64,000 nt of DNA from Gordonia sp. ABSL11-1 (lineage in GTDB: Bacteria; Actinomycetota; Actinomycetes; Mycobacteriales; Mycobacteriaceae). The number at the start of each line of letters is the position of its first letter. The first letter of the stretch is position 1. The notes beneath the pieces were generated by a model that made no database searches, had not been told where the DNA came from, and saw only the letters and a list, made by a program, of their open reading frames with translations. The translations under genes were made by a program, and so were the position numbers. Positions 16,380-46,782 of this stretch are shown one piece after another. Where the stretch lies: contig NZ_JASXSI010000001.1 in the NCBI RefSeq assembly GCF_030315685.1, positions 248,001-312,000 of the forward strand, written 5' to 3'.

Positions 16380-16735
16380 CCCCATCCCCGAGCGGACAGC
16401 CCGACCTGTCCGACGAGGACCAGAAGCTCGTCGTACTGGCCCGAGGTGCCCTCGCCCGCGCCGAGACGCCGTCGGCGGCGGCCGTCCGCGACGGTGACGG
16501 CCGTACCTATGCCGGCGCACCGGTGACGACGTCGACGCTCACGCTCTCCGGTCTACAGGTCGCGGTTGCGACGGCCCTCTCGAGCGGGGCGCAGGCCTTC
16601 GAGGCCGCCGTGCTGGTGAACGGCGACGCCGACGACCCCGGGATGGCCACCCTGGCCGAGATCACGCCGTCCGCCTACGCGGTGGTGACCGATCTGTCGG
16701 GCACGCCCACCGGCCGCACGGACGGCCGAGGATGA
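16376..16735 (+). CDS. Cytidine deaminase-like protein lacking zinc-site residues
   Basis: 119 aa. The pattern [41 protein letters not shown] and AVLVNGD follows the fold of small cytidine deaminases. However, the CAE and PCxxC zinc/catalytic motifs are missing, replaced by SGLQ and no cysteines at all. It is therefore probably not a deaminase. A similar protein sits between the CBS-domain gene and era in mycobacteria. ATGA-type overlaps tie it to both neighbours. Function unknown. Confidence 0.6.
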
Positions 16736-31340: not shown

Positions 31341-31379
31341 GGTGGGGCGGGTGGGGCTCGAACCCACGACCAGCGGATT
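31341..31379. repeat. attL, 39-bp direct repeat (copy 1)
   Basis: Identical over 39 bases to 46707-46745; bases on both sides differ. It contains the T-arm and 3' acceptor sequence of the tRNA gene (GGGCTCGAACCCACGACC). This is the leftover host 3' half of the tRNA, separated from its 5' half by the insertion. Confidence 0.93.
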
Positions 31380-31437
31380 CTAGAACACGCGTTCGAGTAG
31401 ATTCGTCTGAGTCTGGAATATGCTGAGCTAGAACGAC

Positions 31438-33370: not shown

Positions 33371-33404
33371 GGCGACATCTTTTCACAAATCCTGGTGCGT
33401 CTCA

Positions 33405-33434
33405 TTGCAGGTTGCAGAGAACGCGTGCTAGCGT
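33405..33434 (+). promoter_or_regulatory. Predicted rightward early promoter of the element
   Basis: TTGCAG (33405-33410) and TAGCGT (33429-33434) with 18-bp spacing form a sigma-70-like promoter ahead of the excisionase-like gene. GGCGACA/CGCGACA repeats at 33371, 33442 and 33473 flank it and could be operator half-sites for the divergent repressor. Prediction only. Confidence 0.4.
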
Positions 33435-33513
33435 CGAAGTTGGCGACAGTATCAGAGAGTTCTGGTTCGGGTCGCGACAACAATCAAACCCCACAGCAAA
33501 GGACGACCTTCTT

Positions 33514-33735
33514 ATGTTCACGGTCGATACCCCGGTGACACACCAACCGGCGCACGTTCCGAACTTGAATGACTGGAAAGAGACTGGCAGCAAAATCCGC
33601 GCGTCGCGGTCCACGGTTTTCAGCCTGTGGCATTCCGGCGTTCTCGGCTCGCTCAAGGTGGGCAAGCGGCGGTTCAGCACCGATCAGCAGATCGCGGAGT
33701 TCATCGATCGTCAGTCCATGGGTGGAGCCGCATGA
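33514..33735 (+). CDS. Excisionase-like DNA-binding protein
   Basis: 73 aa. The core NLNDWKETGSKIRASRSTVF, then LGSLKVGKRRFSTDQQIAEFID, follows the winged helix-turn-helix of the MerR/excisionase type (read the site, bind, then a basic wing). As the first gene opposite the repressor, a role as Xis or as an early activator is likely. ATG 33514 has AAAGGA upstream. Confidence 0.65.
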   Translation: MFTVDTPVTHQPAHVPNLNDWKETGSKIRASRSTVFSLWHSGVLGSLKVGKRRFSTDQQIAEFIDRQSMGGAA

Positions 33736-33947
33736 TGTCGGCAACCGACTGGCCGACCCAGGACGTCGACCTAGAGACCTTCCAGTCGCTCGACGCTCCG
33801 ACCCGGAGCCTGATCCTCCGGATGCTCGATGATCCAACGGACAGTGACCACCAGGCGCTCACAGATCACCCCAACAGCAAGATGCTCGCCACCTGGCTTC
33901 TCCAGCTACCCCCGTACCAGAGCGCGTACGACGAGGAGGAGGACTGA
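33732..33947 (+). CDS. Unknown early protein of the element (71 aa)
   Basis: Overlaps the preceding gene by ATGA. It is acidic (many Asp/Glu, ending YDEEED), with a helix around TFQSLDAPTRSLILRMLDD. No family is recognised. The coupled position suggests a real early gene. Function unknown. Confidence 0.55.
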   Translation: MMSATDWPTQDVDLETFQSLDAPTRSLILRMLDDPTDSDHQALTDHPNSKMLATWLLQLPPYQSAYDEEED

Positions 33948-33949
33948 TC

Positions 33950-34114
33950 GTGCCCGACTACGACGGCATTCGTCGCAACGAAGACCTCGGCCTGGGATTC
34001 CCTCCGGCCGATCACACCGAAGATCTCGTCGGTGTAAATGAAAACGCCCCGGTCGGTGCTACCAACACCGCCGAGGCTCAAGTTCAACCCGCTACCAAAC
34101 TGGAGAACTACTGA
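33950..34114 (+). CDS. Unknown small early protein (54 aa)
   Basis: GTG 33950 follows a strong AGGAGG-type site and the gene ends TGA 34112-34114, overlapping the next ATG (TGATG). It begins MPDYDGIRRNEDLGLGFPPA and is polar and probably disordered. No family is recognised. Confidence 0.5.
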   Translation: MPDYDGIRRNEDLGLGFPPADHTEDLVGVNENAPVGATNTAEAQVQPATKLENY

Positions 34115-34284
34115 TGCAATCTACACAATCCATCCGACAAATCGAAGAGGTGCAGGTCACACTGCTGGCCGAGGTGCTCGCCGCTGTGCAACCCAGCAGC
34201 GTGGATGACCTGCTCGACCTGGCTGCCCTTGTTGGTGATGTCGAGGCTGGGCGTCTCACCGTGCAGACGGCGGTGACGGCATGA
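34114..34284 (+). CDS. Unknown small early protein (56 aa)
   Basis: ATG 34114 overlaps the preceding stop. The peptide is almost wholly helical (RQIEEVQVTLLAEVLAAVQP, VDDLLDLAALVGDVEAGRL) and could dimerise. The stop overlaps the next ATG. No family is recognised. Confidence 0.5.
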   Translation: MQSTQSIRQIEEVQVTLLAEVLAAVQPSSVDDLLDLAALVGDVEAGRLTVQTAVTA

Positions 34285-34658
34285 CGTATGGCTGGCAGTT
34301 CACCGAGTTCGCAGCGAAGACCAATCAGCTCGCACCGTTGCCGCTGCGGGCCAATTCCGACACCCACGAGTTCGTCAGTCACGCCGAAACAGGGTGGATC
34401 GACGGCATCCGTTTCGAGGAGGAGCCGGCCAGAGACCTGACCATCCGCTTCGACCGATTCGCCAACAACGATCCAGGGTGCCTCCCGATCATCGACTACG
34501 TGATCGGACTGTGCCCAGACCGTAGGACGACCCCGATCGAGTTCTCACCGTCGGCGGCGATCGACGTCGGGCGGTTCCTGATCCAGGCGGGCACTGCCGC
34601 GCTGCGGGACCTCGCTGCGAATAGTGAGTTCCTCGCCGAGGGGGACGGATCATGCTGA
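34281..34658 (+). CDS. Unknown early protein (125 aa)
   Basis: ATGA-coupled to the preceding gene. Mixed alpha/beta appearance (TYGWQFTEFAAKTNQLAPLP, LTIRFDRFANNDPGCLPIID). No signal peptide, transmembrane helix or known motif is seen. Function unknown. Confidence 0.55.
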   Translation: MTYGWQFTEFAAKTNQLAPLPLRANSDTHEFVSHAETGWIDGIRFEEEPARDLTIRFDRFANNDPGCLPIIDYVIGLCPDRRTTPIEFSPSAAIDVGRFLIQAGTAALRDLAANSEFLAEGDGSC

Positions 34659-34969
34659 CCAACCTGATCACCGATCCTGTCCCGACGTCGACGGAGGTTG
34701 CCGGTGGCCTCAAGGCCGACGACAGCGAGTGGACGACCGTCGCCCGATTCGCATCCGGCTCTGCTGAGAGCACGGTTGTCCGGTTCGACTATCTAGACGT
34801 CGACGGCTCCCTCGACACTGCGTATCAGGTCGATTGCGACTGGCTCAACGAGACTGCCGGCGGCTGCGAGTTCACTTTGTTCCAGCAAAACTGGCCTGCC
34901 CTGGCGGACATGGCGGCGGTCCTCACTGCCGTCCACGAGTTCATCGCAAGTGGGGAGGTCGGCCGATGA
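34652..34969 (+). CDS. Unknown early protein (105 aa)
   Basis: Starts inside the end of the preceding gene (7-base overlap). It is acidic and beta-rich (ESTVVRFDYLDVDGSLDTAY), ending in a helix LADMAAVLTAVHEFIASGE. No family is recognised. Confidence 0.55.
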   Translation: MLTNLITDPVPTSTEVAGGLKADDSEWTTVARFASGSAESTVVRFDYLDVDGSLDTAYQVDCDWLNETAGGCEFTLFQQNWPALADMAAVLTAVHEFIASGEVGR

Positions 34970-35262
34970 GCGATACCTGTGTTTTTGCCTGGTGCGATGC
35001 GACATGTGATGGCCACATAGACCACACCCACTCCGTGGAGTACCTGGCGGCCTCACACTCTGCTCCGTTGTCCATCGAAATAGGTGTCGGAGTCACCGTT
35101 GACGACGAGGGTCCGAGCGTGTTCGTGTCCATCCTCGACTTCGCCGGCAGGTATGACAGCGACGCTTACATGACCGCGGACGAGGCAGACACCCTCGCCG
35201 AACAACTCCGCGTCGCCATCACGCGCTGTCGCGAATCTTCCGGTTTGGCGGTGGTTCGATGA
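34966..35262 (+). CDS. Unknown Cys/His-rich early protein (98 aa)
   Basis: ATGA-coupled. An N-terminal Cys/His cluster (CVFAWCDATCDGHIDHTHS) may bind metal; the remainder is beta-strand-like (PLSIEIGVGVTVDDEGPSVF) with a final helix. It resembles small phage proteins with an amino-terminal zinc knuckle. Function unknown. Confidence 0.55.
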   Translation: MSDTCVFAWCDATCDGHIDHTHSVEYLAASHSAPLSIEIGVGVTVDDEGPSVFVSILDFAGRYDSDAYMTADEADTLAEQLRVAITRCRESSGLAVVR

Positions 35263-35561
35263 CTGAGGAGCAGTTCGAGGAGGTCTCGCGGACCTGCGAA
35301 ATCTATACCGGCAGACCGTGGGACGGCACCATCGAGCAGCTGTACGCGTCGCAGGCTCGGCAAGTCGAAATCCACGACATCCTGCAAGCGCACGTCGACT
35401 GGCTGTCCGACATCAAGGCGCGGGTCGAGGAGTCTGGGCAGCGCTGGAACACGGTCTCGTGCCGGTCGCGGTCGCGGCGGGATGGTGACCTCGGCGCACC
35501 ACCGGAATGGATCGGTGAACTGTCGGAACGGCTCACGCCGGAATGGATGTTGAACCGGTGA
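35259..35561 (+). CDS. Unknown helical early protein (100 aa)
   Basis: ATGA-coupled to its upstream neighbour. Charged and helical (EEQFEEVSRTCEIYTG, DILQAHVDWLSDIKARVEES). No motif is recognised. It sits in a run of at least eight coupled genes that probably act together early after induction. Confidence 0.5.
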   Translation: MTEEQFEEVSRTCEIYTGRPWDGTIEQLYASQARQVEIHDILQAHVDWLSDIKARVEESGQRWNTVSCRSRSRRDGDLGAPPEWIGELSERLTPEWMLNR

Positions 35562-35929
35562 CGGGCCGTGACCTCGACCCGAGTACAGCGTTCGTCAAAC
35601 GCGAACCCGATGGCGAGTACTACCTCAATCACGCCGCCACGGCCCTGCTCATGGGGGTCGATCCGTCGGTGCTGATGCAGTACTACCGCGATGCGGGTGC
35701 CGGTCAGGCGATCTACGCGCTGCCGGACACACTGCGGCAGGCCGGTATCCGCCGTTCGAAGGAGTTCGCGGCGATGACCGACTCAGCCGAACCGGACATG
35801 GGTGACGCGTTGATCTACTACGCCAGGCAAGACGGAGTCGAGTTGGTGTTCGAAGACATGACGGGTGAGCGGATCACGCTGTGCGCTAAGCCGTTCTGGC
35901 GTCGTGACGGGGGTGATGCCCGAATCTGA
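35558..35929 (+). CDS. Unknown early protein (123 aa)
   Basis: GTG 35558 overlaps the previous stop (GTGA); ATG 35543 is an alternative. The protein has an N-terminal helix region (LNHAATALLMGVDPSVLMQY) that could be an HTH, and beta strands at the end (VELVFEDMTGERITL). It is the last gene before the intergenic hairpins. Function unknown. Confidence 0.5.
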   Translation: MTGRDLDPSTAFVKREPDGEYYLNHAATALLMGVDPSVLMQYYRDAGAGQAIYALPDTLRQAGIRRSKEFAAMTDSAEPDMGDALIYYARQDGVELVFEDMTGERITLCAKPFWRRDGGDARI

Positions 35930-35947
35930 ACGTGTCCTTTTGGGTGG

Positions 35948-36037
35948 CACGAGCAACTGCTCGTGGTGCGGCTCCTGGTCAATCTCTTTCCGCTGAACCC
36001 AGCGGCGGTGGCCCCGAATGATCTCGGGGCCACCGCC
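35948..36037 (+). other. Two strong stem-loops in the gap before the replication genes
   Basis: First, CACGAGCA / TGCTCGTG (35948-35965, 2-base loop). Second, a perfect 14-bp stem from 36004-36017 and 36024-36037 with loop ATGATC. Neither is followed by a T-run, so a Rho-independent terminator is not certain. Processing sites, an attenuator or a replication-related structure are alternatives. They divide the early genes from the replication module. Confidence 0.6.
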
Positions 36038-36051
36038 TGAAAGGACTCTCC

Positions 36052-36345
36052 GTGTCTACGACACATCCTACCGATACCCCGGACAGGTATCCCGAAAATT
36101 ACGTCGACCCTGCCGACAAGCTGATGCTCGCCGCGTTGCGGGCCGGTACCTACATCCTCGCGGTCCGTTGCCGGTCGTGCGGTGCGCCGCTGACGAACCG
36201 AGAGTCGAAGGCTCTCGGCATCGGCCCCGACTGTCGCCGCAAGGCGGTCGCTATTGGAGATTCCTCCGATATGGCGGGAGGGTCACCCACACCCACCTTT
36301 TCGTCGGCGCCGACGAAAAGGTCTGCGAATGAGGGGGCGGCATGA
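36052..36345 (+). CDS. DUF6011-like zinc-ribbon protein
   Basis: 97 aa from GTG 36052. The central CRSCGAPLTNRESKALGIGP, then DC, motif is typical of a small phage and actinobacterial family with a treble-clef-like metal site (DUF6011 as I recall). The C-terminal ~30 residues are low complexity. It stands directly upstream of the primase gene, with ATGA overlap, suggesting a replication accessory role. Confidence 0.6.
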   Translation: MSTTHPTDTPDRYPENYVDPADKLMLAALRAGTYILAVRCRSCGAPLTNRESKALGIGPDCRRKAVAIGDSSDMAGGSPTPTFSSAPTKRSANEGAA

Positions 36346-37082
36346 CCGACCTCGCAACCGCCGCAATCGACTACGCCACCCGAGGATTGCCAATCTTCCC
36401 GCTCGTTCCGCGGACGAAGCGCCCAGCAACTGCTCATGGCAAGGACGACGCAACTGCCGACGTCGACCAAGTGGACCAGTGGTGGCGCGACAATCCGAAC
36501 GCCAACATCGGACTGAGGCCGCCGACGGGCTTTGTGGTCATCGACGTCGACCCTCGGGCCGGCGGCTCCCTCGATCACCTCGGGTCAGTCCCGCCAACCC
36601 GTATCGCCGCTACCGGCGGACACGGCCACCACATCTGGCTCCGCCACAGCTGCGAACGCGTCCGCGGAAGGCTCGCTGGCGCTCCCGGCATCGATTTGAA
36701 GACTGATACCGGATACGTCGTGGTACCGCCGTCGGTGCACCCGAACGGCAACCAGTACCGCTGGGTCAGCGAGTATCCGGTGGCTTGGCTTCCTGAGCAT
36801 CTTACCGAGCGGGTGTCGGCTGCCGTCTACAAGACACCATCTGTTCCGACTGGTGCACATGGTCGGTCGGCGGATCGTTTCGTCGGGCTCGTCCAGACCG
36901 TTTCAACCGCAGCCGAAGGCAATCGCAACCATCTACTTTTTTGGGCTTGCTGTAGGGCGATTGAGGGTGGCGCCGACCCGGCCGTGTTCGTCGACCTCGT
37001 GCACGCCGCGGTGAAGGTCGGCCTGGCAGAAGCCGAGGCGCAACGGACGGTGCAGTCGGCGATGCGGAGGGCAGCAGCGTGA
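36342..37082 (+). CDS. Bifunctional DNA primase/polymerase (prim-pol)
   Basis: 246 aa. An archaeo-eukaryotic-type prim-pol domain with the metal-binding FVVIDVDPR and the His of ATGGHGHHIWLRH; ALDYATRGLPIFPL-like opening (AAIDYATRGLPIFPLVPRTK) is typical. The domain is present without a fused helicase; the next gene supplies the ATPase. It should prime element replication. Overlaps neighbours by ATGA on both sides. Confidence 0.85.
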   Translation: MTDLATAAIDYATRGLPIFPLVPRTKRPATAHGKDDATADVDQVDQWWRDNPNANIGLRPPTGFVVIDVDPRAGGSLDHLGSVPPTRIAATGGHGHHIWLRHSCERVRGRLAGAPGIDLKTDTGYVVVPPSVHPNGNQYRWVSEYPVAWLPEHLTERVSAAVYKTPSVPTGAHGRSADRFVGLVQTVSTAAEGNRNHLLFWACCRAIEGGADPAVFVDLVHAAVKVGLAEAEAQRTVQSAMRRAAA

Positions 37083-38503
37083 CTGAAGCAGAGGACTTTT
37101 GGGAGTCACGGCCGATCCTGACCCACGTGCGCGACTTCGCCCGGGCCCGCCTGGTCGGGCAATGGTCGACCCTCGGCGTGCTGATGGCCCGTGCTGTCGC
37201 ATACACACCGCCCGAGGTTGTCCTGCCGCCAACGGTTGGTGACGTTGCCAGTCTCAACATGATTGTCGCGCTGACTGGTTCATCGGCGGCCGGCAAGGGT
37301 ACATCGGAGGCAGCTGCACGCGCTTGTACGAATCTGCCGCTGATCGACGAGTTGCCGATCGGTTCGGGTGAGGGCATCGCCCGCACTTTCGCGGCACCGC
37401 CGAAGCCGAAGGATGAGGACAAGCCCGCGCCGGAGGCGATCACTAAGGCCATCTTCACCGCCTCCGAGATCGACACCGTCGCCGCGATCGGTGCACGGCA
37501 GGGCTCGACACTGCTGCCGACGTTGCGGCAGGTGTATTCCGGGGAGACGTTGGGCAGCGCCAATAGTCAGGCTCACACCCGTGTCATCGTGCCCGCCCAT
37601 TCGTATCGGGCGTGCGTGATCGTGGGGGTTCAGTACGAGCGGGCCAGGGTGCTGGTCAACGACACAGCGGGCACTCGGCAGCGGATGCTGTGGCTGCCGA
37701 CAGCAGACCGCAACGCACCAGATGTGGATCTCCCTGTGCCGGACCGGTGGAACATCCCGCGCTATCTCCTAGCCGTGGGCGGTCAGCGGGTGCTGTCGTT
37801 GCCGCGGGAAGCGGTCGACGAGATCAAGGCGCATCGGCGGTCAATTCTGCGTGAGGACCCTGACGTTGACCACACTGACGGACACCGGATGCTCACTCGG
37901 GAGAAGGTCGCTGCCGCGCTGATGCTGCTCGACGGACGGTGCTCGGAGATCACGGTTGAGGACTGGGAGTTGGCGGGGATCGTGATGCGCGTCTCCGACG
38001 CGACCCGCGCGCGCATCGAACGAACACTCTCGGAGGAGCGGCAGAGGGTCAACCGGGCGAAGGCGCACGAGACGGCCGAGCGTGAGGAGACGGTTGAGAA
38101 GCGTCGCCTGGACACAGTTAAACGACGCATCCTCGCGGTCATCTCCGAGGAGTCAATGGCGCGGGGAAAGCTTCGGGCGGCGCTCGGTCGACGTGAGTAT
38201 CGAGACCTTTTTGAGCAAGCGGTTCTCGAGCTGGAGGCGTCGGGATCGATGGTCGCCGAGGCTGATGGAAACACGACCCGCTACCGGATTTCCGAAGAGG
38301 GGGTGGGGTTGAACATTGAACAGTCTGTTCAACCCTCGAAACTGCAGGTCAGAGGGGATGAACACGGGTTGAACATTGAACAGTTGCCCACTTACCTCGA
38401 AGGGCAGCGACCTGGGAAAACGCAGTCGGGGGCGCGTGGGTACTCCGGGCGGCGACCCGGTAACCGAAACCGCCGCAGCAACGACGACGGGGGTGCAGCA
38501 TGA
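37079..38503 (+). CDS. P-loop replicative helicase-like ATPase
   Basis: 474 aa. A Walker A loop (ALTGSSAAGKGTSEAA, residues ~64-79) and downstream FTASEIDTVAAIGARQGS resemble phage and island proteins of the DUF3987/helicase type that act with prim-pol enzymes. A coiled-coil stretch (RARIERTLSEERQRVNRAKA) precedes a C-terminal tail with the duplicated GLNIEQ motif encoded by the iteron-like repeats. It probably unwinds the origin in its own 3' end. The assignment to a specific helicase superfamily is uncertain. Confidence 0.7.
   Translation: MTEAEDFWESRPILTHVRDFARARLVGQWSTLGVLMARAVAYTPPEVVLPPTVGDVASLNMIVALTGSSAAGKGTSEAAARACTNLPLIDELPIGSGEGIARTFAAPPKPKDEDKPAPEAITKAIFTASEIDTVAAIGARQGSTLLPTLRQVYSGETLGSANSQAHTRVIVPAHSYRACVIVGVQYERARVLVNDTAGTRQRMLWLPTADRNAPDVDLPVPDRWNIPRYLLAVGGQRVLSLPREAVDEIKAHRRSILREDPDVDHTDGHRMLTREKVAAALMLLDGRCSEITVEDWELAGIVMRVSDATRARIERTLSEERQRVNRAKAHETAEREETVEKRRLDTVKRRILAVISEESMARGKLRAALGRREYRDLFEQAVLELEASGSMVAEADGNTTRYRISEEGVGLNIEQSVQPSKLQVRGDEHGLNIEQLPTYLEGQRPGKTQSGARGYSGRRPGNRNRRSNDDGGAA
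38306..38384. repeat. Iteron-like TGAACA cluster, candidate replication origin
   Basis: A 19-bp direct repeat, GGGTTGAACATTGAACAGT, occurs at 38306-38324 and 38366-38384, exactly 60 bp apart. Within 73 bp there are five TGAACA and one inverted TGTTCA; GGGTTGAACA (38306-38315) is mirrored by TGTTCAACCC (38326-38335). The pairs are spaced by 7 bp. Position at the end of the helicase-like gene is where satellites and many plasmids keep their origin. Confidence 0.6.
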
Positions 38504-38964
38504 CGCGCGGACAGCGACGCGAACCGGGCGTCATTTCACTCCTCGCCGGCATCTTCACCGACCTGCCCCTGCTACCCGGTGCCCGCTGCATCGGCTCCGG
38601 TGACCTGTTCGACCCACGCGCCAACGGCGAGTCCGTCCAAGCCGCGCAATACCGGCACAACCAGGCAGCAGCACTGTGTGCCCAGTGCTGCGTCCTGGCC
38701 GACTGCCGGTCGTGGGCTGACACCCAACCCGGACAACGCTCCGCAGTCATCGGAGGCCGACTCCCGGACCAACCCGGCCGACCAAGGAAGGAGGGAAACA
38801 GCCGCATGAACGAACAACGTCACCGCGACCGCAAAGAGCGGAAGAAGGTGTGCAAGCGTTGCTACGGTCCCTGCCGGACACACAAGGGAACTGTTCACGG
38901 TTGGACGTGCGAAGCGTGCCTACGCGACTACGTGGACGCACAGCTACCGAAAGGCGCGGCGTGA
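38500..38964 (+). CDS. WhiB-family protein fused to a C-terminal zinc-ribbon-like tail
   Basis: 154 aa. The four WhiB cysteines are visible: GARCIGSG, then LCAQCCVLADCRSW (Cys-x2-Cys-x5-Cys), expected to hold a [4Fe-4S] cluster. The usual G(V/I)WGG turn is degenerate (VIGGR). After residue ~105 a second Cys-rich segment (CKRCYGPCRTHKG, then WTCEAC) is added in the same frame. Phage WhiB proteins redirect host transcription, so this may regulate late genes of the element or a helper phage. Confidence 0.75.
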   Translation: MTRGQRREPGVISLLAGIFTDLPLLPGARCIGSGDLFDPRANGESVQAAQYRHNQAAALCAQCCVLADCRSWADTQPGQRSAVIGGRLPDQPGRPRKEGNSRMNEQRHRDRKERKKVCKRCYGPCRTHKGTVHGWTCEACLRDYVDAQLPKGAA

Positions 38965-39377
38965 CCGCGCGGGCGCTCGGTTCGGCCGTCCTCATCGAGG
39001 GGGCGGAGGCGTTGCGCTACCTCAATCACGCTCAGGTCGAGCTGGTCAGAAAACTGCAACGTGCCGGTATGCAACCACACCCTGAGCTGGTGGCCATCGC
39101 CCACGCCGCCCACGCCGCGATGCTCTCTCTGTCCAAGGTGGGACATGTGGACGGACCCGAAGCGGGTGCCGAACCAGAGTGGTCCCCAACGGAACTGATC
39201 AGCGCTGCGGACGCCGCGGAGATTCTGGGAGTCTCCCGCCGCCACGTAGTTCGGATCGGTACCAGCCTCGACGGGGAGCAACTTGCCAACGGCCATTGGG
39301 TTTTCCGCCGAGGTTCGGTGGAGGACTACGCGGAAGGCCGCAGGGATGAACAGCGTCGGAGACGTACAGCCGCATAA
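38961..39377 (+). CDS. Helix-turn-helix protein of the excisionase/MerR type
   Basis: 138 aa from GTG 38961, overlapping the WhiB stop (GTGA). The C-terminal half has an HTH (LISAADAAEILGVSRRHVVR) followed by the wing RGSVEDYAEGRRDEQ. The N-terminal half is helical (LRYLNHAQVELVRKLQRAG). It is the last gene before the tape measure, so it could be a late-gene activator or a second excisionase-like factor. Confidence 0.6.
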   Translation: MTARALGSAVLIEGAEALRYLNHAQVELVRKLQRAGMQPHPELVAIAHAAHAAMLSLSKVGHVDGPEAGAEPEWSPTELISAADAAEILGVSRRHVVRIGTSLDGEQLANGHWVFRRGSVEDYAEGRRDEQRRRRTAA

Positions 39378-39387
39378 CGATTCTCGG

Positions 39388-39420
39388 TCATCGGGCACCA
39401 CGACGGGGGGTGCCCGATGA
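39388..39420 (+). promoter_or_regulatory. Hairpin enclosing the tape-measure start codon
   Basis: Perfect 12-bp arms TCATCGGGCACC (39388-39399) and GGTGCCCGATGA (39409-39420) with a 9-base loop. The start ATG of the tape measure gene (39417-39419) is in the 3' arm, and the G-rich ribosome site is in the loop and arm, so folding would hide the start. Translational control is inferred. Confidence 0.6.
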
Positions 39421-42400
39421 CCGAGTTGGCCAGTGCTTACATTTCAATCATTGCGGAGACCTCATCGGTGCCGCCCGCCATACGGAAGGCGCTCGGCAAA
39501 GCTGACGGTGACGCCGCCAAGGCCGGCAAGTCGATGGGCGCGAAACTGTCCGGCGCGCTCGGCACCGCTCTCAAGGGGGGCGCCGCGACGGCCGCCGCTG
39601 CAGGCACCGCAGCCATCGGCGCCACCATGGTCAAAGGCTTCCAACGCCTTACGGCGATCGACGATGCCAAAGGCAAGCTCGCCGGTCTTGGCCATACTGC
39701 TCAGTCGACCTCGACCATCATGGACAGCGCGTTGTCGTCGGTCAAGGGCACCTCCTACGGCCTCGGCGACGCCGCCACCATCGCAGCGTCCGCTGTCGCA
39801 GCAGGGATCAAACCCGGCCAGCAACTCACCAAGTACCTGTCGATGACCGCCGATGCCGCATCCATCGCGGGTGTCGGGTTGAGCGAGATGGGGCAGGTGC
39901 TCAATCAGACGGCCACATCTGGTGTGGCGATGACCGACGACTTGAATCAGCTTGCCGACAGAGGCATTCCGATCTACACGTGGTTGGGCAAAGAGGCTGG
40001 AGTCGCGGCCGGCGAGGTCAAGGGTCTGGCGTCCGAGGGCAAGATCTCCTCGGAGATGTTGTTCCGGGCGATTCAGCAGAATATTGGTGGCGCGGCGAGG
40101 GAATCCGGTAAGACCGTCAGTGGTTCGTTCGACAATGTGCTGGCCGCGATGGGCCGTCTCGGTGCCGCGGTCGAGGGGCCGACGTTCAAGCGACTGCCGG
40201 GTTTCTTCGGTGACATCACCAGCCGGATCGATGCCGCCACCCCGTCTGCCGAGCGTTTCGCCCAGGCCCTCGACGCCAAGGTGTTCGACGAGTGGGGACC
40301 GAAGCTGCACAAGGCGTTCGAGGACTTCCGAGCGACCGGAAACATCGAGCAGGCCCGCACAGTCTTCACGTCGATGATGACGGCCGCTGGTGCCGCCGCA
40401 CCGAGTATCGGCCAGATCGCCCGCTCCCTCGCGCAGGCATCGGCGACGCTGGGTGTGTCCGGGTGGCAACTGTTCCTCACCGCCCTGCAGGTCGGCACGA
40501 CCACCCTGAACGTGCTCAATCCTTTGTTGCAGACCACCGCCAGCCTGATGCAGAACAACCAAGGCTTGGTCACCGCCTTTGTGGCCGGGTGGTTGGCGTT
40601 CAAGACCGTCCCCAACATTGTCGGCGCGGTGAACGGACCCCTCGGTACGGTCACCAGCCGACTGCGTACTGCCGGCACGACGATGCGGGACTTCGGGGCG
40701 GCGTACTCAACGTCGATGCAGTACGTGCGCCAAGCCAATCCGTCGATCTCTACCGCGGGCGCGCATCTGCAGGTGTTGCGGCAGAACGGTATGAACGCCT
40801 CCGGCGCGATGAACGCGTTGAAGGGTGGTGCCGGGTTGGCGGCCGGTGCCCTCGGCGGTCCGCTGGGGATCGCGCTCGCTGTCGGCGGTATCGCTCTGGG
40901 CGAGTACTCGAAACATCAGGCCGACGCCGCGCAGAAGGCTGCCGACCATAAACAGATGATCGATGCGCTGTCGGACTCGGTGAACTACAACACCGGCCAG
41001 TTGACCGCCAACGGGCAAGCCCAGGTGTACAAGTCGTTGAACGACGCCGACGCGTTCGCCAACGCCCGCAAGGGCGGCGTGGCCGTCAGTCGAGCGCAGA
41101 TCCAATCCGCCGGTGAGGGCAATCAAGGGGCGTTGGAAGCGGTCAACGCCGAGATCGATTCCGTTGTCCGTAATCGCGTATCTGATGTCATCTCCGACCG
41201 TCAGCAGGAGAAGCTGCGCGAAGCCGGCCTCAGCATCGACGACTACACGGCAGCACTACGCGGGAACGCTGATGCTCAGAAGAAGTTCGCCGACGCCGGC
41301 CAGGGACGCGACTGGGGTGCCGCGGCGAAGGATCTCGGCGAGACGACGCAGGCCGCTATCAAGCTCGGGTATGCCCTCGGCGACTCGAACAAGAGCCTGA
41401 AAGAGTCGCGCGATTCCGCCCGCCAAGAGTCGGAGGCGATGGGCACTGTCCAGAAGAATCTGACGTCGCTGGCCGACCAGTTCAAGGGCCAGGGGAAGGG
41501 CTTCTCGGTCACCGTCGACACCACCCAGGTCGCCGGCGCCGAGCAGGTACTCAAGGCCGCGGGCTACGCGTTGGAGCCGCTCAAGGATGGTCGGGTCCGA
41601 ATCACCGCCGAGACCGATGAGGCCGCCGCACGATTGAACCTGCTGGCCAACACGGTGCGTGAACTGCCGCCAGGCAAAGCCATCGCGGTCACCTCACCCG
41701 GCGGTATCGCTGTGCGAGACCTACTGACCTCGGTCGGCGCAAAGGTCAACCAGGACAACACGAAAGAAATCGAGGTCACCGCTCCGCTCGCCCCGGCCCA
41801 ACTGGCCCTGTTACAGCAGATTGGCGGCGAGGTCGTCACCCGCAACGGCAAGCAGATCGTTGTCACCGCCGACGACTCCGACTATCAGCGCAAGAAGTCG
41901 GTGTGGTCGCAGTCGGAAACCAAGTGGATCGAGGTGCGCGTCGCTGACGGCACCTACGGCGCCGGACTCGGTGTCCTCAAACCGGATTCACCGCTACGAC
42001 AGCACGCCAACGGTGGGATAGCCGCCTACCTCAACGGCGGCATCACCGCGGCCGAAGCCTACGCCAACGGCGGTCTCCGCGAGATCCGCAAACCCACTGC
42101 CGCCGACATCTTCGCCGGCCGCGGCGCCGGCACCATCTTCGCCGAAGAGGAAACCGGCGGCGAAGCGTATCTGCCGCTGGCCCCCGGTAAACGCCGCCGT
42201 TCGACCGACATCCTCGCCACCGTCGCGAAGATGTTCGGCTATACCCTGCTGCCGGACGGCGCACTGCCCACCAACATCAGCGATCTCCTCGGCGCCGTGT
42301 CCGGGTCGGCCGTCTCGAGACTGCTGGCCCTGCCCGGTAGTCGCTTCGCTGACGGCGGCATCGTCACCGGCGACCAACTACGCGCACTCGCCGAAGGCAA

Positions 42401-44330
42401 GGGCGCATCCCGCCCACTCCGCGGCGCACCGTACGTGTCCGGCGGCATCAACTGGGGCGACTGCTCCGGCGCCATGTCACCATTCGCCCGCCTCGCCGCC
42501 GGTCTCGACCCGTTCGGCGGACGGTTCGCCACCGCCAACGAAGGCGACTATCTGACGAAGCTCGGCGCGACCCTGGGCCGCGGCGCTGCGGGAACCTTGC
42601 GGTTCGGTTGGTATAACGGCGGTCCCGGCGGGGGGCACACGGCGGGAACCTTGCCCGACGGTACGAACATCGAGATGGGCGGCCAGAACGGTGGCGGCAT
42701 GGTCGGCGGCTCCGTCGGCGCCGACGATCCCCAATTCACCGATCACGCGTGGATGGCAGTGAAGAACGCCAACCAGTACGCCGGCAGCAGCAGCGCTGAT
42801 GCTGACTCCGATTCGGTGGCCACCGGCAGCAGCATGTCCGACTCCGGGTTGGCCAGTGGCTACGCCTTCGACCCCATCACCTCCGACACCACCAGCGGCG
42901 AAGGAGACACCAGCATCTCCGGGCGCCTCGGTGCCGTCGCGAACGCATTCGTGTCCGGGCAGGCAGCCTCGTTCATGGACCTGATCAAGCTCAGTGACAG
43001 TCCCGGCTGGTTGGCGGCCCTCGCCGAGTACGACAAGGGCAAACGCGCTGACGCCCGCCAGAATTATGAGTCGGAGAAGAAGAAACTCGACGCCGACTAC
43101 AAAGACGCTGAGGACCAACGCAAGTCTGACTACGACGATGCGAAAGAGGCCATCGACGGCGACTACCAGTCGCAGATCATTTCCGCGGCCGAACGTGACC
43201 GGCGGATGTTGGCGTTGCGCAACCAGTATGAGAGCGACGAGATCGCCAACCGCCACGACTACGAGAACGCCGTCATCGGTAAGGGCAAGCAGTACGGGCT
43301 GGTCAACCAGGACTCGGTGAGTAGCCTGTCGCTCAAGCAGAAGTACGAGAACGACCAGCTGCGCGGGTCGCAGCAGTTGCAGTCCGCCGAGTTCGACCGC
43401 GAAGCCCAGTACAACCGCGACAAACTCGCGTTGGACAACCTGAAAGCGTCGCACGCCATCAGCGACGACGTGTACGACCGCCGGTTGCGCGACACCAAAG
43501 CCAAGTACGACAGCGACATTCGCGGACTGAAGGACCGCTACAGCAGCGACCAGGCCACCCTCAAGAGCACGTTTGACCGGTCGCAGTCGATGTACGCGCC
43601 GTCCAACCGCTACCTGCCGAACAGTTCGAAACCGTCGACGTTCCACCCGACCGATCCGGGCACGATCAAACCGGCCCGCAACGAGGACCTCAACGTCGGG
43701 GCATCCAACGGCCCGAACCTCACCACCGGCAACAGCGTGAAAGACGCCGTCAGGAGTGCATTCGCCGACCGCAGGTGGAACACCGGAACCCAATGGGACG
43801 CCACCGACTACATCGTGAACAGAGAATCGGGGTGGAACCCGACCGCAGTGAACCCGTCGTCGGGTGCGTTCGGGCTGTTCCAGTTCCTCGGGTCCACCCA
43901 GCAGCAATACCTGCCCGACAAGAACCCCGATCCTGGTGTGCAGGGCCAGGCGGGCAAACGCTACATCGGCGACCGCTACGGCGACCCCACTGCGGCCCGC
44001 GCGTTCTGGGATGCCAACCACTGGTACGACCGCGGCGGCGAAGCCAACGGTATCGGCCACATGCTCAAGAACACGATCAAACCCGAACGGATGCTCTCAC
44101 CCGAACAAACCAAGTCGTTCGACGTCGGCATGCGCAACGGGTTCGGCGCCAACAATCCCGAGATGATCGGGCTGCTCCGCGACCTCGTCGACAGCAACAA
44201 CCGGATGCTCGCCATCCTCCTCAAGGGCGGCGCAGCACCCAACCACTTCCACGGCACCGACTCACGGGAACGCACCCGCATTCAGAAGCAGCAAGAACGA
44301 GACCGACGCGCAGCGTTGGCCGGACTCTAA
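39417..44330 (+). CDS. Tail tape measure protein with two peptidoglycan-hydrolase domains
   Basis: 1637 aa. It opens TELASAYISIIAETSSVPPA, typical of actinophage tape measures, followed by the tape-measure N-terminal domain (~60-260) and Ala/Gly-rich hydrophobic stretches (~355-400, ~465-500). A cysteine peptidase-like domain has Cys ~1016 (WGDCSGAM) and His ~1074 (GGGHTAG). A long coiled coil (~1205-1400) precedes a lysozyme-like transglycosylase domain with Glu ~1470 (VNRESGWNP and GAFGLFQFLG). The protein would set tail length and help DNA cross the cell wall. It is complete and unbroken, yet no tail tube, tip or capsid gene is present in the element. Confidence 0.9.
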   Translation: MTELASAYISIIAETSSVPPAIRKALGKADGDAAKAGKSMGAKLSGALGTALKGGAATAAAAGTAAIGATMVKGFQRLTAIDDAKGKLAGLGHTAQSTSTIMDSALSSVKGTSYGLGDAATIAASAVAAGIKPGQQLTKYLSMTADAASIAGVGLSEMGQVLNQTATSGVAMTDDLNQLADRGIPIYTWLGKEAGVAAGEVKGLASEGKISSEMLFRAIQQNIGGAARESGKTVSGSFDNVLAAMGRLGAAVEGPTFKRLPGFFGDITSRIDAATPSAERFAQALDAKVFDEWGPKLHKAFEDFRATGNIEQARTVFTSMMTAAGAAAPSIGQIARSLAQASATLGVSGWQLFLTALQVGTTTLNVLNPLLQTTASLMQNNQGLVTAFVAGWLAFKTVPNIVGAVNGPLGTVTSRLRTAGTTMRDFGAAYSTSMQYVRQANPSISTAGAHLQVLRQNGMNASGAMNALKGGAGLAAGALGGPLGIALAVGGIALGEYSKHQADAAQKAADHKQMIDALSDSVNYNTGQLTANGQAQVYKSLNDADAFANARKGGVAVSRAQIQSAGEGNQGALEAVNAEIDSVVRNRVSDVISDRQQEKLREAGLSIDDYTAALRGNADAQKKFADAGQGRDWGAAAKDLGETTQAAIKLGYALGDSNKSLKESRDSARQESEAMGTVQKNLTSLADQFKGQGKGFSVTVDTTQVAGAEQVLKAAGYALEPLKDGRVRITAETDEAAARLNLLANTVRELPPGKAIAVTSPGGIAVRDLLTSVGAKVNQDNTKEIEVTAPLAPAQLALLQQIGGEVVTRNGKQIVVTADDSDYQRKKSVWSQSETKWIEVRVADGTYGAGLGVLKPDSPLRQHANGGIAAYLNGGITAAEAYANGGLREIRKPTAADIFAGRGAGTIFAEEETGGEAYLPLAPGKRRRSTDILATVAKMFGYTLLPDGALPTNISDLLGAVSGSAVSRLLALPGSRFADGGIVTGDQLRALAEGKGASRPLRGAPYVSGGINWGDCSGAMSPFARLAAGLDPFGGRFATANEGDYLTKLGATLGRGAAGTLRFGWYNGGPGGGHTAGTLPDGTNIEMGGQNGGGMVGGSVGADDPQFTDHAWMAVKNANQYAGSSSADADSDSVATGSSMSDSGLASGYAFDPITSDTTSGEGDTSISGRLGAVANAFVSGQAASFMDLIKLSDSPGWLAALAEYDKGKRADARQNYESEKKKLDADYKDAEDQRKSDYDDAKEAIDGDYQSQIISAAERDRRMLALRNQYESDEIANRHDYENAVIGKGKQYGLVNQDSVSSLSLKQKYENDQLRGSQQLQSAEFDREAQYNRDKLALDNLKASHAISDDVYDRRLRDTKAKYDSDIRGLKDRYSSDQATLKSTFDRSQSMYAPSNRYLPNSSKPSTFHPTDPGTIKPARNEDLNVGASNGPNLTTGNSVKDAVRSAFADRRWNTGTQWDATDYIVNRESGWNPTAVNPSSGAFGLFQFLGSTQQQYLPDKNPDPGVQGQAGKRYIGDRYGDPTAARAFWDANHWYDRGGEANGIGHMLKNTIKPERMLSPEQTKSFDVGMRNGFGANNPEMIGLLRDLVDSNNRMLAILLKGGAAPNHFHGTDSRERTRIQKQQERDRRAALAGL

Positions 44331-44351
44331 ACCCACACGACAGAGGACACC

Positions 44352-44784
44352 ATGACCAAGTACATCATCGTCCCCTCCCACGGCGAAGAAGTGCAGTGCC
44401 ACTTCACCATCCCCCGCAAAGGCAAGACGAAAGACATCGAGTTCACCGTCCGCCGCATGGACTACATCGACCACCTCGAACGCGACCTCGTCGACTGGTC
44501 CACCGAACGGATGAAACCCACCCCCGTCCTCGACGACAACGGAGACCCCGCACTCGACGACGACGGCAACCCCATCACCGAAACCCCCGACGACATCTCC
44601 GACCGCGAAGCCATCCTCGCCCACCTCCGCCTCGCCGCCGTGCCCGCCACCACCATGCGCAGCCTCGAGACCCTGACCAACGGCGAACTCACCCACATCC
44701 ACACCACCTGGGCGCAAGCATCCAAAGAGCGCCATCCCCGTCAGGTACCGCGACTCCGACACCGGCACAGTCACCGACGCCTAA
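44352..44784 (+). CDS. Tail assembly chaperone-like protein with a change of frame near its end
   Basis: The first ~123 codons (MTKYIIVPSHGEEVQCHFTI to THIHTTWAQASK) have normal high GC at third positions. After ATCCAAAGAG at ~44725 the coding signal moves to the +1 frame (equivalent to -2), reading SAIPVRYRDSDTGTVTDA and stopping at TAA 44782-44784. The original frame runs on only as Arg/Pro-rich nonsense into the next gene. Tail assembly chaperones are well known for programmed frameshifts, though usually -1 and upstream of the tape measure. Alternatives are a one-base mutation or sequencing error. Confidence 0.6.
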
Positions 44785-44832
44785 CGACCAGCGCCACACA
44801 ACAACCCAACCACCACCTAAAGAGAGAACATC

Positions 44833-45516
44833 ATGAACCTCGTCGACCTCCACGCCGAAGTCCAGGGATACCGCGACACAGCCGGACAACTCGCCGACGA
44901 CTACACCCGCGCCCACGCCGAGATCAGCAGCAACCCCGCACTCACCAACGACGGCAAGCGCGAACAACTCGAACCACTCCACCAAGAGACCGCCGACAAG
45001 ATGCACGAGCTGCACCAGCGTGAGAAGACCGCGGTCAAAACCTACAAGGAGAAGCTCGAACGCAACCTCTACGGCCTCTCACCCTCAGCCAGCACCAACC
45101 CCGACCAACTCCGCCTATACCGCGAAGCACAAACCCTCACCCGCGATCTCGCCGACAGCGAGGACGCCGCCGTCGTCTACGAATCCGCCAAACGCTCCGG
45201 CGACACCATCCTCGCCGCCGCAGTCCTCGAGAAGGCACTCGTCCGAGGCTGGACCAACATCAAGAACGATTACATCGAACGCCACCCCGACACTCGCAAC
45301 GCACTCGACGACCTCGGCGCCCTCGCCAAGTTCACCGACAACCGCCTCGCCAACACCGCCCAATACATGCCACCATCGGCAGACCTGCCACGCCCATCCG
45401 CCGGCTTCCCCCAACTCGGCGACCTCACCGCGGCCAGCACACCCAAACGGCCCCGAGACCTCGGCGACGTCATGGCAGAGCGAGTCACCGCCGACGGAAC
45501 ACGCCGCTACTTCTAA
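44833..45516 (+). CDS. Unknown helical protein of the late module (227 aa)
   Basis: Long helices predominate (LHAEVQGYRDTAGQLADDYT, EPLHQETADKMHELHQREKT), then a Pro-rich tail from about residue 175. No transmembrane segment or known motif is seen. A place between tape measure and nuclease genes suggests a structural, scaffold-like or assembly role, but this is only a guess. Confidence 0.55.
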   Translation: MNLVDLHAEVQGYRDTAGQLADDYTRAHAEISSNPALTNDGKREQLEPLHQETADKMHELHQREKTAVKTYKEKLERNLYGLSPSASTNPDQLRLYREAQTLTRDLADSEDAAVVYESAKRSGDTILAAAVLEKALVRGWTNIKNDYIERHPDTRNALDDLGALAKFTDNRLANTAQYMPPSADLPRPSAGFPQLGDLTAASTPKRPRDLGDVMAERVTADGTRRYF

Positions 45517-45620
45517 CCCCAGGGGCAGGACCCCACGGACCCCACAAACCGGCCTCTGTAGGCATAGACAGCTGTGTGTGTGGGACCCCCTACCCCTCCC
45601 CCCTGAAAGAGGTGTGACTG
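45517..45620. other. Repeat-containing gap before the HNH gene, possible packaging site
   Basis: Holds a tandem 9-bp repeat GGACCCCAC (45528-45536 and 45537-45545), a TG-repeat and then a C-rich run (ACCCCCTACCCCTCCCCCC). In cos phages the cohesive-end site often lies just before the HNH/small terminase genes, so this is the best place for one here. Nothing in the sequence proves it. Confidence 0.3.
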
Positions 45621-45953
45621 ATGCCGTTCGCTTCGACCACGATTCGGACTCGTCGTCGTGCTGAGGTTCGTCGTCGTGATGGGGATGCGCCGTGTGCCCT
45701 GCAGATCACGGCGGATTGTCAGGCGGTCAACGGGCAGATCGAGTACAACGCGCGCCCCCCTGATCCGCGGTCGTTCGAGGTAGATCACATCGTTTCCTCG
45801 GATGAGGCGATGCGCGCTGGCTGGACAGAAGCGGAAGCCGACGCGCTCGAGAACACGCAGGGTGTGTGCCGGCAGTGCAATCGTGCGAAGTCGTCCGGCA
45901 ACCGCCCGGTGGCGGCCGTGCGTCCGACGTACATCAACCCTCGATTCACCTAG
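45621..45953 (+). CDS. HNH endonuclease
   Basis: 110 aa. The HNH core is visible as FEVDHIVSS, LENTQGVCRQCNRAKSS, with an upstream CALQITADC pair giving the zinc site. Phage HNH proteins of this size work with terminase to cut cos ends. Together with the next gene, this could form the DNA-recognition and cutting part of a packaging complex that borrows a helper large terminase. Confidence 0.85.
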   Translation: MPFASTTIRTRRRAEVRRRDGDAPCALQITADCQAVNGQIEYNARPPDPRSFEVDHIVSSDEAMRAGWTEAEADALENTQGVCRQCNRAKSSGNRPVAAVRPTYINPRFT

Positions 45954-45964
45954 GGAGAGAAACC

Positions 45965-46222
45965 ATGGCTCGACATGAGACGTTGGCGGCGGCGATGGCT
46001 GCTGGTGATGTGCTTGCTGAGGCGGAGATGCGGTACAAGCTGTTGGCGGAGACGTTTGAGGAGATGCCGCAACTCCGGGCGAATATCAATGCGCAGTTGG
46101 AGCGGGCGAAGGCGGAGATCATTCGGCTGCGGGCGTTGGCGGAGGCGTCGAAGCCGGCGGGGAAGGACGACAGCACGGTGGTGGCGTTCGACGCCACGAG
46201 GTTCCGGAAGTCAGGCGCATAG
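45965..46222 (+). CDS. Small helical protein in the small-terminase position
   Basis: 85 aa, ATG 45965 preceded by GGGAGAGA. Two helices dominate (TLAAAMAAGDVLAEAEMRYK, LRANINAQLERAKAEIIRLR), the second coiled-coil-like. Such small oligomerising proteins after an HNH gene are often TerS, but no HTH signature is clear, so this assignment comes from place and shape alone. Confidence 0.45.
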   Translation: MARHETLAAAMAAGDVLAEAEMRYKLLAETFEEMPQLRANINAQLERAKAEIIRLRALAEASKPAGKDDSTVVAFDATRFRKSGA

Positions 46223-46280
46223 AGGCAACCGTGGTCAACTTGACCACGGTTGGCGAGATCACATTGGACGAAGCGAAGAG

Positions 46281-46589
46281 CTACCGTCTGCCGTTGTTGG
46301 TGATGGCCGCTCCGAGGAGTGCGGCGATAGCAGCGATTCCGAGTACGGCGACGATGGGGGTCCGATCCGAGATCGCATCCTCGCATTGGTCGACACTGGT
46401 CTCATTGCCCGTGGTGGTGCCCCATATGTCGGACTTCTTCGCCTCGGTGTCGTCACGGGAGAACCAGCTGCCGCAGCTGACGGTGTCGGAGTCGTAGGTT
46501 CTGCCGCTGTCGACGGTGATGGGTTTGAATCCGGCGACACCTGTGGCGATGAGCAGTACCACGCCGAGTGCGAGGAGGATGCGCGTCAT
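46281..46589 (-). CDS. Two-pass membrane protein next to attR (accessory gene)
   Basis: 102 aa. Transmembrane helix 1 (LLALGVVLLIATGVAGF, ~5-21) and helix 2 (IVAVLGIAAIAALLGAAI, ~79-96) flank an extracytoplasmic loop with two Cys (VSCGSWFS and VDQCEDA) that could form a disulfide. It is on the opposite strand to the late genes and abuts the attachment site, where lysogenic-conversion or superinfection-exclusion genes often sit. Function unproven. Confidence 0.6.
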   Translation of the reverse strand: MTRILLALGVVLLIATGVAGFKPITVDSGRTYDSDTVSCGSWFSRDDTEAKKSDIWGTTTGNETSVDQCEDAISDRTPIVAVLGIAAIAALLGAAITNNGRR

Positions 46590-46706
46590 AGCGCCGATCT
46601 TTGCACGTGATCAGCGCAGATGAACGGCGTTTGTGTTTAAGCGATGGATATTCGACGGATTGGGGTTGCTGGCAACGTCGAATGGGTAGGGTATTGGCTG
46701 TTCAGA

Positions 46707-46745
46707 GGTGGGGCGGGTGGGGCTCGAACCCACGACCAGCGGATT
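46707..46745. repeat. attR, 39-bp direct repeat (copy 2)
   Basis: Matches 31341-31379 in all 39 bases. It supplies the 3' half of the tRNA gene, and its right end (46745) coincides with the anticodon loop, a common crossover site for tyrosine integrases. Confidence 0.93.
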
Positions 46746-46782
46746 ATGAGTCCGCGGCTCTAACCGACTGAGCTACCGCCCC
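46709..46782 (-). tRNA. tRNA-Met (anticodon CAT; tRNA-Ile2 also possible)
   Basis: Cloverleaf: acceptor GGGGCGG / CCGCCCC, D-arm GCTC...GAGC, anticodon stem GCGGA / TCCGC with loop CTCATAA (anticodon on plus strand 46746-46748), T-arm GTGGG TTCGAGC CCCAC, discriminator A. The 3' CCA is not encoded. A CAT anticodon can be elongator Met or Ile2 (lysidine-modified); the choice needs covariance scoring. The gene is restored at attR by element sequence. Confidence 0.88.

Follow-up and report, generated by a model that had tools for sequence, protein, structure and literature searches.

The 64,000-nucleotide stretch of DNA from the soil bacterium Gordonia sp. ABSL11-1 analyzed here (the window; positions 248,001 to 312,000 of contig NZ_JASXSI010000001.1) contains a 15.4-kb island, 31341-46745, that is bounded by exact 39-nt attachment (att) repeats, has a tRNA-Met gene as its site, and carries a complete gene for a phage tape measure protein (TMP). 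The original prediction, made from the letters and their open reading frames (ORFs), placed an intact 1637-codon gene at 39417-44330 and held that the element encodes no capsid, portal, terminase large subunit (TerL), tail tube or tail tip. The gene lies at exactly these coordinates with its frame open throughout, and none of the five other components was recognized by PHROG profiles or by probes from phage Lucky10. The integrase and repressor-like genes are read leftward; small early genes, Prim-Pol, helicase-like, WhiB-like and helix-turn-helix (HTH) genes follow, and then the TMP gene, with a tail assembly chaperone, a protein that we call o44833, an HNH endonuclease and a terminase small subunit (TerS) in that order 3' of it. 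Features bearing on the TMP and on packaging are as follows (pLDDT, predicted local distance difference test).

31341-31379, no strand: attL, 39-nt core, same as the attR core
39417-44330, + strand: tape measure protein, 1637 aa; ATG at 39417, stop ending at 44330, no internal stops
42459-42638, + strand: Cys...His pair, putative peptidase (DCSG at residue 1015, GH at residue 1073), found by pattern
43824-43883, + strand: transglycosylase motif ESGWNPTAVNPSSGAFGLFQ (residues 1470-1489); Pfam SLT (partial), NF052397
44352-45023, + strand: tail assembly chaperone; phrog_28033 E 3e-24, conserved domain in residues 1-126
44833-45516, + strand: o44833, helical satellite protein; 19 of 401 genomes by profile, model pLDDT 71
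45549-45582, + strand: cos-like site; phage genome end at GGCAT 45561-45565 / 45566
45585-45598, - strand: 14-nt element beside cos, GAGGGGTAGGGGGT; in ODay too, with the island copy inverted
45621-45953, + strand: HNH endonuclease; 80-83% identical to gene 1 of ODay and Spooky, Job42 72%
45965-46222, + strand: TerS; phrog_4479 E 1e-35, 67-69% identical to gene 2 of ODay, Spooky and Job42
46707-46745, no strand: attR, 39-nt core within the 3' part of tRNA-Met(cat) 46707-46782 (- strand)

The TMP matches PHROG family 10780 (tape measure, E 7e-201), Pfam TMP_3 (E 2e-17) and NCBIfam tape_meas_nterm (E 1e-6). Most of the protein is matched, residues 677-1569 by phrog_10780 and residues 24-390 by phrog_8927, and 1546 phage records are matched by tblastn; relatives were not found in a scan of viral contigs. 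Among the matches listed for the 21 window ORFs besides the TMP that were scanned against PHROGs (25 of 37 families, nine of the 21 ORFs with full listing), the island ORFs fall into chaperone, TerS, HNH and replication families, and capsid, portal, TerL, tube or tip families do not occur. When 24 Lucky10 proteins, including TerL, portal, capsid and major tail protein, were compared with the window at E <= 1e-4, the TMP was the sole match. The original prediction also placed peptidase and transglycosylase active-site residues in the TMP. The transglycosylase is borne out by the SLT domain match and its motif; what carries the peptidase label is a conserved Cys/His residue pair, and that part of the claim is reduced to a putative enzyme class. 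By pattern, the DC(S/A)G...GH pair, 58 residues apart, is also found in the TMPs of Lucky10, Angelique, ODay, Ecliptus and a resident prophage, and its spacing is 58 in six of 16 sister-satellite TMPs and 59 in a seventh. It is absent in Spooky and in nine of the 16 sisters (G054, G050, G015, G042, G312, G201, G296b, G261 and G073c; G handles denote genomes, G000 being the window's own). Searches of PDB sequences with both enzyme regions gave nothing usable, and a single-sequence structure model of the peptidase region reached a pLDDT of 33. The island TMP may bring its own ejection enzymes, against which stands the absence of the Cys/His pair from those nine sisters.

The TMP is not peculiar to this island. 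TMP matches occur in 24 of 59 genomes of the genus, and 16 further islands with an open TMP were found in 15 relatives, 12 of them near an o44833 gene. A first set comprised nine further TMP islands, eight within the genus plus G130. With the window counted, nine islands of the genus (G000, G054, G022, G047, G053, G020, G050, G015 and G042) are bounded by exact 26-48-nt repeats at tRNA genes, spaced 10.3-19.5 kb apart; the tenth, G130 from another genus, has a weak 21-nt repeat only. PHROG scans covered 118 of the 120 listed ORFs of nine sister islands (TMPs and integrases excluded, two border-crossing ORFs omitted, 25 of 102 families listed), and 20 chosen sister ORFs, nine of them from G047, G053, G015 and G130, were also scanned singly. 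No head gene was seen in G054, G022, G047, G053, G130 or G015, either among the matches listed or by BLAST against labelled phage proteins. Other islands carry more: G020 (L069) has the TMP with TerS, TerL and a minor head protein, G050 (L070) the TMP with TerL, and G042 (L078) the TMP with a major head protein, and in G048 (L073) TerL, portal and MuF were found and no TMP was seen. By gene content, these four islands appear to form a continuum from TMP-only to capsid-type satellites. Two further observations concern TMP distribution. A 51-nt repeat at tRNA-Met in G046 (L071, 1663-11827) encloses relatives of the integrase, repressor, Prim-Pol and a DUF3987-like protein and no TMP. Six contigs of G056 (C2, C7, C15, C17, C27 and C32) hold eleven TMP matches, several of them short (563-1094 aa) and in opposite orientations.

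Lack of selection and inactivating mutations had been named in advance as signs against a functional TMP, and neither was found for the window copy. The ratio of nonsynonymous to synonymous substitution (dN/dS) between the window and G054 satellite TMPs is 0.227 over residues 2-755 (0.186, 0.295 and 0.272 in parts, the last being 520-755), far below 1. For pairs that include a satellite TMP (five: G000, G054, G022, G047 and G053), dN/dS is 0.13-0.25 in alignment windows of at least 50% identity, with dS of 0.6-1.7, partly saturated, and with a phage branch in most pairs of this set; a phage-phage control gave 0.151. Purifying selection on the satellite TMPs is thus supported where tested, in five TMPs with dN/dS of 0.13-0.30. 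Open frames of about 1300 codons or more are present at 17 of the 18 TMP loci, window counted. The TMP at the remaining locus, L143 of G237 (15729-17260), lies downstream of o44833, is broken into pieces of 156 and 354 aa, and is the sole decayed copy.

Where do the satellite TMPs come from? In a nearest-neighbor comparison of 27 TMPs (17 satellite and 10 phage, prophage or unclear), the G022 protein is closest to that of phage Angelique (65%), G047 to Ecliptus/ODay (63%), the window and G053 to a G. tangerina prophage (60% and 54%, respectively) and G201 to a Rhodococcus phage (40%). G050 and G261 are nearest to TMPs of unclear context (G018 and G008), and the nearest relative of the remaining ten is another satellite. 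Because the nearest relatives belong to different phages, repeated capture of the TMP by satellites is the simplest reading of these sequences. In residues 501-700, the window TMP shares 64-73% identity with G054, versus no more than 29% with any of the other ten aligned TMPs.

The window TMP is 200-234 aa shorter than those of ODay, Ecliptus and Spooky (1837, 1837 and 1871 aa), a difference equivalent to about 21-25 nm of tail by the ratio from PLEs (phage-inducible chromosomal island-like elements) or 30-35 nm by the rule of thumb of 0.15 nm per residue. The original prediction proposed that such a satellite imposes its own tail length on the helper, as other satellites re-size helper capsids. 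As a general rule this fails: the G022 TMP has 1880 aa against 1874 in Angelique, and the G047 TMP about 1802 aa from an upstream start against 1798 in Lucky10 and 1837 in ODay. With two sister TMPs of phage length, re-sizing is probably not the shared purpose, and tail shortening as a universal purpose is rejected. A crude test suggests shorter satellite TMPs overall (median 1484 aa for 17 satellite versus 1768 aa for 18 phage/prophage TMPs; Mann-Whitney p = 0.017) and is suggestive only, ten prophage values being open-frame lengths and the lineages not being independent; G027, G037, G008, G018 and G056 were left out as cut, split, unclear or multi-copy.

Downstream of the TMP, the island has a packaging module that resembles one end of a phage genome. 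At E <= 1e-3 the TerS has 109 matching phage records, of which 108 show 60-80% identity, in Gordonia phages such as Spooky and ODay and Mycobacterium phages such as Job42. In the matched phages the left end of the genome is followed, after about 40 bases, by the HNH endonuclease gene (gene 1) and then by that for TerS (gene 2). Comparison of the joined ends of four genomes (ODay, Spooky, Job42 and Ecliptus) with the island identified the cos junction GGCAT(N)7TGTGTG 55 bp 5' of the HNH gene; loose and strict forms of the pattern each occur once in the 64-kb window, the strict form having been sought on the + strand only. The same TerS is found in six further loci, where by eye the full cos motif precedes it in G147 and G073b, and a variant with a TGTG run in G312, G296a and G381a. 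A sequence like CCCCCTACCCC lies beside cos in several other islands. The cos-HNH-TerS module points to a cos-phage helper of the ODay/Spooky/Job42 type. The only phrog_4479 TerS in the window's own genome is that of the island. A resident prophage-like region (G000:C1:185913-228426, L033-L035) has a 1971-aa TMP, TerL and minor tail proteins and, by its approximate borders, is separated from the island by about 51 kb. Over 504 residues, the TMPs of this region and of the island share 56% identity. This prophage is not favored as the helper, since the genome has no TerL of the ODay type and its sole phrog_4479 TerS is the island's.

The tail assembly chaperone stands beside the TMP in the window and in G054, and is 43-45% identical to chaperones of 18 Gordonia phages. 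It comes after the TMP gene, versus before it in phage order. The second 3' gene, o44833, has no match for its window copy among 50,697 phage records at E <= 0.01, no Pfam family above cut-off and no NCBIfam family, and relatives of two o44833 proteins were not found among viral contigs. Its model is a long helical hairpin with a helical domain; a structure search returned generic helical bundles only (best PDB Z 11, in the range for which the tool warns about helical proteins) and no viral structure at E <= 0.001. A profile built from six copies, all from TMP islands, detects o44833 at 27 places in 19 of 401 genomes of the family and seven of 31 genera: the six seeds, 18 further stretches that were examined, and three fragments left out. 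These 18 loci were taken irrespective of a nearby TMP with a profile derived from TMP islands. Seven have an open TMP of 1305-1600 aa (G312, G147, G201, G073a, G296b, G261 and G073c), and among the families listed for their 48 other ORFs (25 of 48) there is no capsid, portal or TerL. G237 has the broken TMP, G205 a minor tail protein and G361 a head maturation protease; the remaining eight, including one truncated at a contig border, showed no recognizable TMP or head gene. The minor tail protein of G205 (L127, 13986-16818; 595 aa, phrog_110 E 3e-185) follows directly on TerS, with no TMP, and is possibly a parallel to the hub protein of PLE11. Hidden TMPs were not found in the ten TMP-free loci: their two ORFs of at least 900 aa (G381a and G381b) are a DNA helicase and a reductase-like protein by PHROGs. 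Nor were att repeats found at the ten of 18 stretches with an integrase match. A role of o44833 solely as a TMP partner is rejected, since TMP-free loci carry it too. By analogy with the capsid redirectors of other satellites, we propose that o44833 may act on head assembly. Directly before o44833 in G201 (L136, 13462-13887) lies a 141-aa fragment of a head scaffolding protein, a hint of capsid redirection.

The remaining features of the island are these.

31438-32676, - strand: tyrosine integrase; PF00589 E 1e-17, phrog_1 E 6e-48
32657-33370, - strand: repressor-like HTH protein; phrog_11503 (HTH) match among the 21 window ORFs, weak NCBIfam BldD/RstR matches
33514-33735, + strand: excisionase-like small HTH protein, function putative; adjoins the repressor, 83% identical in sister island G054
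35543-35929, + strand: early satellite protein, taken as a family marker; 13 of 401 family genomes, own genome counted
36342-37082, + strand: Prim-Pol primase/polymerase; PF09250 E 3e-36
37079-38503, + strand: primase/polymerase C-terminal or helicase-like part; phrog_28894 E 1e-61
38500-38964, + strand: WhiB-like regulator; weak PHROG/Pfam WhiB matches, kept beside the TMP slot in several sister islands
38850-39377, + strand: HTH_17 protein directly 5' of the TMP, start uncertain; PF12728 E 1e-5, under the curated cut-off
46281-46589, - strand: small membrane-like protein, labelled by eye

Judged by its att repeats at a tRNA gene, its integrase, repressor-like and replication genes and its cos-TerS module, the island is an integrated phage satellite. 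In a related genome (G041:C72), the joined flanks align without the island (query 1-478 of 480, 81%), so the att site is naturally empty there. The 39-nt core at 31341-31379 also occurs, letter for letter, in Mycobacterium phages Yoshi, RitSun, ThetaBob and Demsculpinboyz; these phages probably share the tRNA-Met site with the island. The putative repressor has a homolog in G054 that is 87% identical and itself matches phrog_11503, and a homolog of the HTH_17 protein stands directly before the TMP in G054, G022, G047 and G073a. A 4.2-kb contig of Dietzia cercidiphylli (L067) encodes a relative of the island primase (46%).

How might a satellite use a TMP when no tube gene is recognized beside it? 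We think it fairly probable, from the gene content and by analogy with PLEs, that the satellite relies on a cos-phage helper for packaging and makes chimeric tails by substituting its own TMP and chaperone. Growth of an ODay/Spooky/Job42-type cos phage in the cell would lead to excision and replication of the island, and the island TerS would direct the helper's large terminase to the island cos. Island DNA would enter helper-built heads, probably small ones, and o44833 or another island protein may redirect head assembly. The island TMP and chaperone would replace the helper TMP in tail assembly, giving island particles in which a tube and tip from the helper enclose the island's ruler; this ruler would also bring in wall-cutting domains of its own. 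Their tails would be about 20-35 nm shorter than with an ODay-like (1837 aa) or Spooky-like (1871 aa) helper TMP. The benefit is probably a reserved supply of TMP or escape from TMP-targeted interference, and not length itself.

Several observations weigh against this reading. The window TMP is 34-39% identical to those of ODay and Ecliptus in two blocks with an unaligned middle, and its sole match to the Spooky TMP is a C-terminal stretch of 209 residues (25%, E 7e-4); with identities this low, the fit with the helper tube is assumed. The loose cos pattern is absent from the nine other TMP islands in that first set, which thus have different packaging modules, and in G205, which has the same TerS, no cos motif was seen by eye. 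It is the poor Spooky match and the missing cos pattern that lower our confidence. The window's own genome (121 contigs) has no match to the ODay TerL, and ten of the 59 genus genomes have some match, the best at 36%; the helper would therefore be an incoming phage, as yet hypothetical. Among the islands searched, the chaperone occurs in the window and G054 only. Its C-terminal tail homologous to G054 lies in the +1 frame (44691-44840, reading by eye VRYRDSDTGTVTDA and then a stop just 5' of o44833) and is out of frame with the listed ORF, which continues to 45023; this may be a programmed frameshift, a mutation or an assembly error. No TMP is seen at ten of the 18 further o44833 loci, so that it is optional, and the partly saturated dS values and phage branches noted above temper the selection estimates.

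A TMP so unlike those of the likely helpers could instead be a weapon: island TMP and chaperone would be decoys that poison helper tail assembly by titrating chaperone, tube or tip, and island particles would keep the helper TMP. Interference of satellites with tail assembly is described for Tai (PMC11364771) and Rta (PMC12987554). This explanation is unlikely, however, as a full-length protein of about 1300-1880 aa exceeds the needs of a decoy, the window copy retains wall-cutting motifs, and the TMPs of PLEs are described as incorporated and not merely inhibitory (PMC12987554). It is also rather doubtful that the TMP is primarily an ejection or host-range module, exchanged for matched wall-cutting and membrane-crossing parts with tail length incidental. 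That would suit the phage-length TMPs of G022 and G047, the window copy's retention of its Cys/His pair and SLT motif, and the minor tail protein that follows TerS in G205, but nine of 16 sister TMPs are without the pair by pattern, and chimeric tails would be needed here too, so that this explanation overlaps the favored one.

Could the TMP have no function in the island at all? TMP, chaperone, HNH and TerS are all phage genes, as would be expected of a decayed Lucky10/ODay-like prophage that retains its TMP by chance. Such an origin is very improbable: a similar order of early genes, WhiB-like, HTH, TMP and o44833 recurs across species and att sites, the chaperone is 3' and not 5' of the TMP, contiguous head-tail order or its remains were not encountered, o44833 is without a phage match, sister TMPs are nearest to those of different phages, and purifying selection is detected. 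Just as improbable is a passenger TMP, gained by recombination and kept without function. The TMP is optional in the family and one copy is broken (G237), yet 17 of 18 TMP loci are open, dN/dS is well under 1 where tested, and there are several sources of capture. Beyond the window, the evidence is about evenly balanced on a wider proposal, in which a large o44833-marked satellite family of Gordonia and its relatives would use phage morphogenesis genes as interchangeable cargo (TMP in the window island and 12 others, a minor tail protein in G205, a head maturation protease in G361) and build chimeric virions part by part, tail-gene piracy having arisen independently of the PLEs and more than once.

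Classical phage-inducible chromosomal islands (PICIs) are 10-20 kb long with att repeats, encode an integrase, a repressor divergent from the early genes, a primase and TerS, and depend on a helper for packaging. The window island agrees with them in gene content, size and att repeats, with a putative repressor and with helper packaging indicated by the cos/TerS match only. To our knowledge, no tail gene is present in classical PICIs or Staphylococcus aureus pathogenicity islands (SaPIs). Capsid-forming PICIs (cf-PICIs) are likewise integrated islands with phage morphogenesis genes, but they encode capsid, portal and terminase, whereas of the capsid, portal, protease and terminase genes TerS alone is recognized in the window island; the G042 and G048 islands are either intermediate or closer to the cf-PICIs. 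The phages ODay, Spooky and Ecliptus and those of the Job42 type share the cos-HNH-TerS module, and ODay, Ecliptus and Spooky also the TMP superfamily, but they are complete genomes of 55-60 kb. A Mycobacterium survey defined candidate PICIs by an integrase plus a capsid gene (PMC10654092), so TMP-only islands would be missed, and the words "tape measure" are absent from its main text. Streptomyces satellites encode heads, with tape measure not mentioned in the available text of PMC10690885, and the Pseudomonas satellite AH14b is said to be without structural genes (PMC4936722). Accounts of other satellites describe tail interference (PMC11364771) and capsid redirection (PMC12409344). No description of the o44833/TMP satellite family was found in the open-license PubMed Central literature on TMP with satellites, in general, in Gordonia or in Actinobacteria.

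The closest known parallel is the PLEs. PLE11 is described as putting its own TMP and hub into virions; PLE tails are 10 nm shorter for a TMP difference of 95 aa; and tmp deletion cuts PLE transduction by 96-99.9%, tmp being needed for efficient transduction of PLE1, 4 and 11 (PMC12987554). In the legend of Extended Data Fig. 10 of that paper, both PLE-like elements and cf-PICIs are credited with putative tmp genes; a satellite that carries a TMP is thus no novelty in itself. The main text of the paper mentions neither Gordonia nor Actinobacteria by name. The study, of 2026, demonstrates chimeric tails for a single satellite group of one pathogen without establishing what the satellite gains from them. 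If our reading is right, an independent and widespread actinobacterial family would make takeover of the tail ruler a general satellite strategy, and surveys based on capsid genes miss a class of satellites. The family is also tractable: the isolated Gordonia phages ODay, Spooky and Ecliptus are helper candidates, and sisters with shorter and with phage-length TMPs allow length, ejection and escape from tail-directed defense to be separated. Like the window island, the PLEs (PLE1, 4 and 11, with tmp and tac, and PLE11 with bhuB as well) encode a TMP and a tail assembly chaperone, have no tube gene of their own and have a TMP unlike that of the helper, and the predicted shorter tail and the chimeric tail model are alike. 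They differ in that chimeric tails are demonstrated for PLEs (PMC12987554) and are deduced here from genes, and in that PLEs have a Vibrio host and ICP1 as helper, whereas the island has a Gordonia host, a cos-HNH-TerS module of Gordonia/Mycobacterium phages, and a TMP that is optional in its family and was apparently captured several times. By this analogy, the window island would work like a PLE but is not a PLE.

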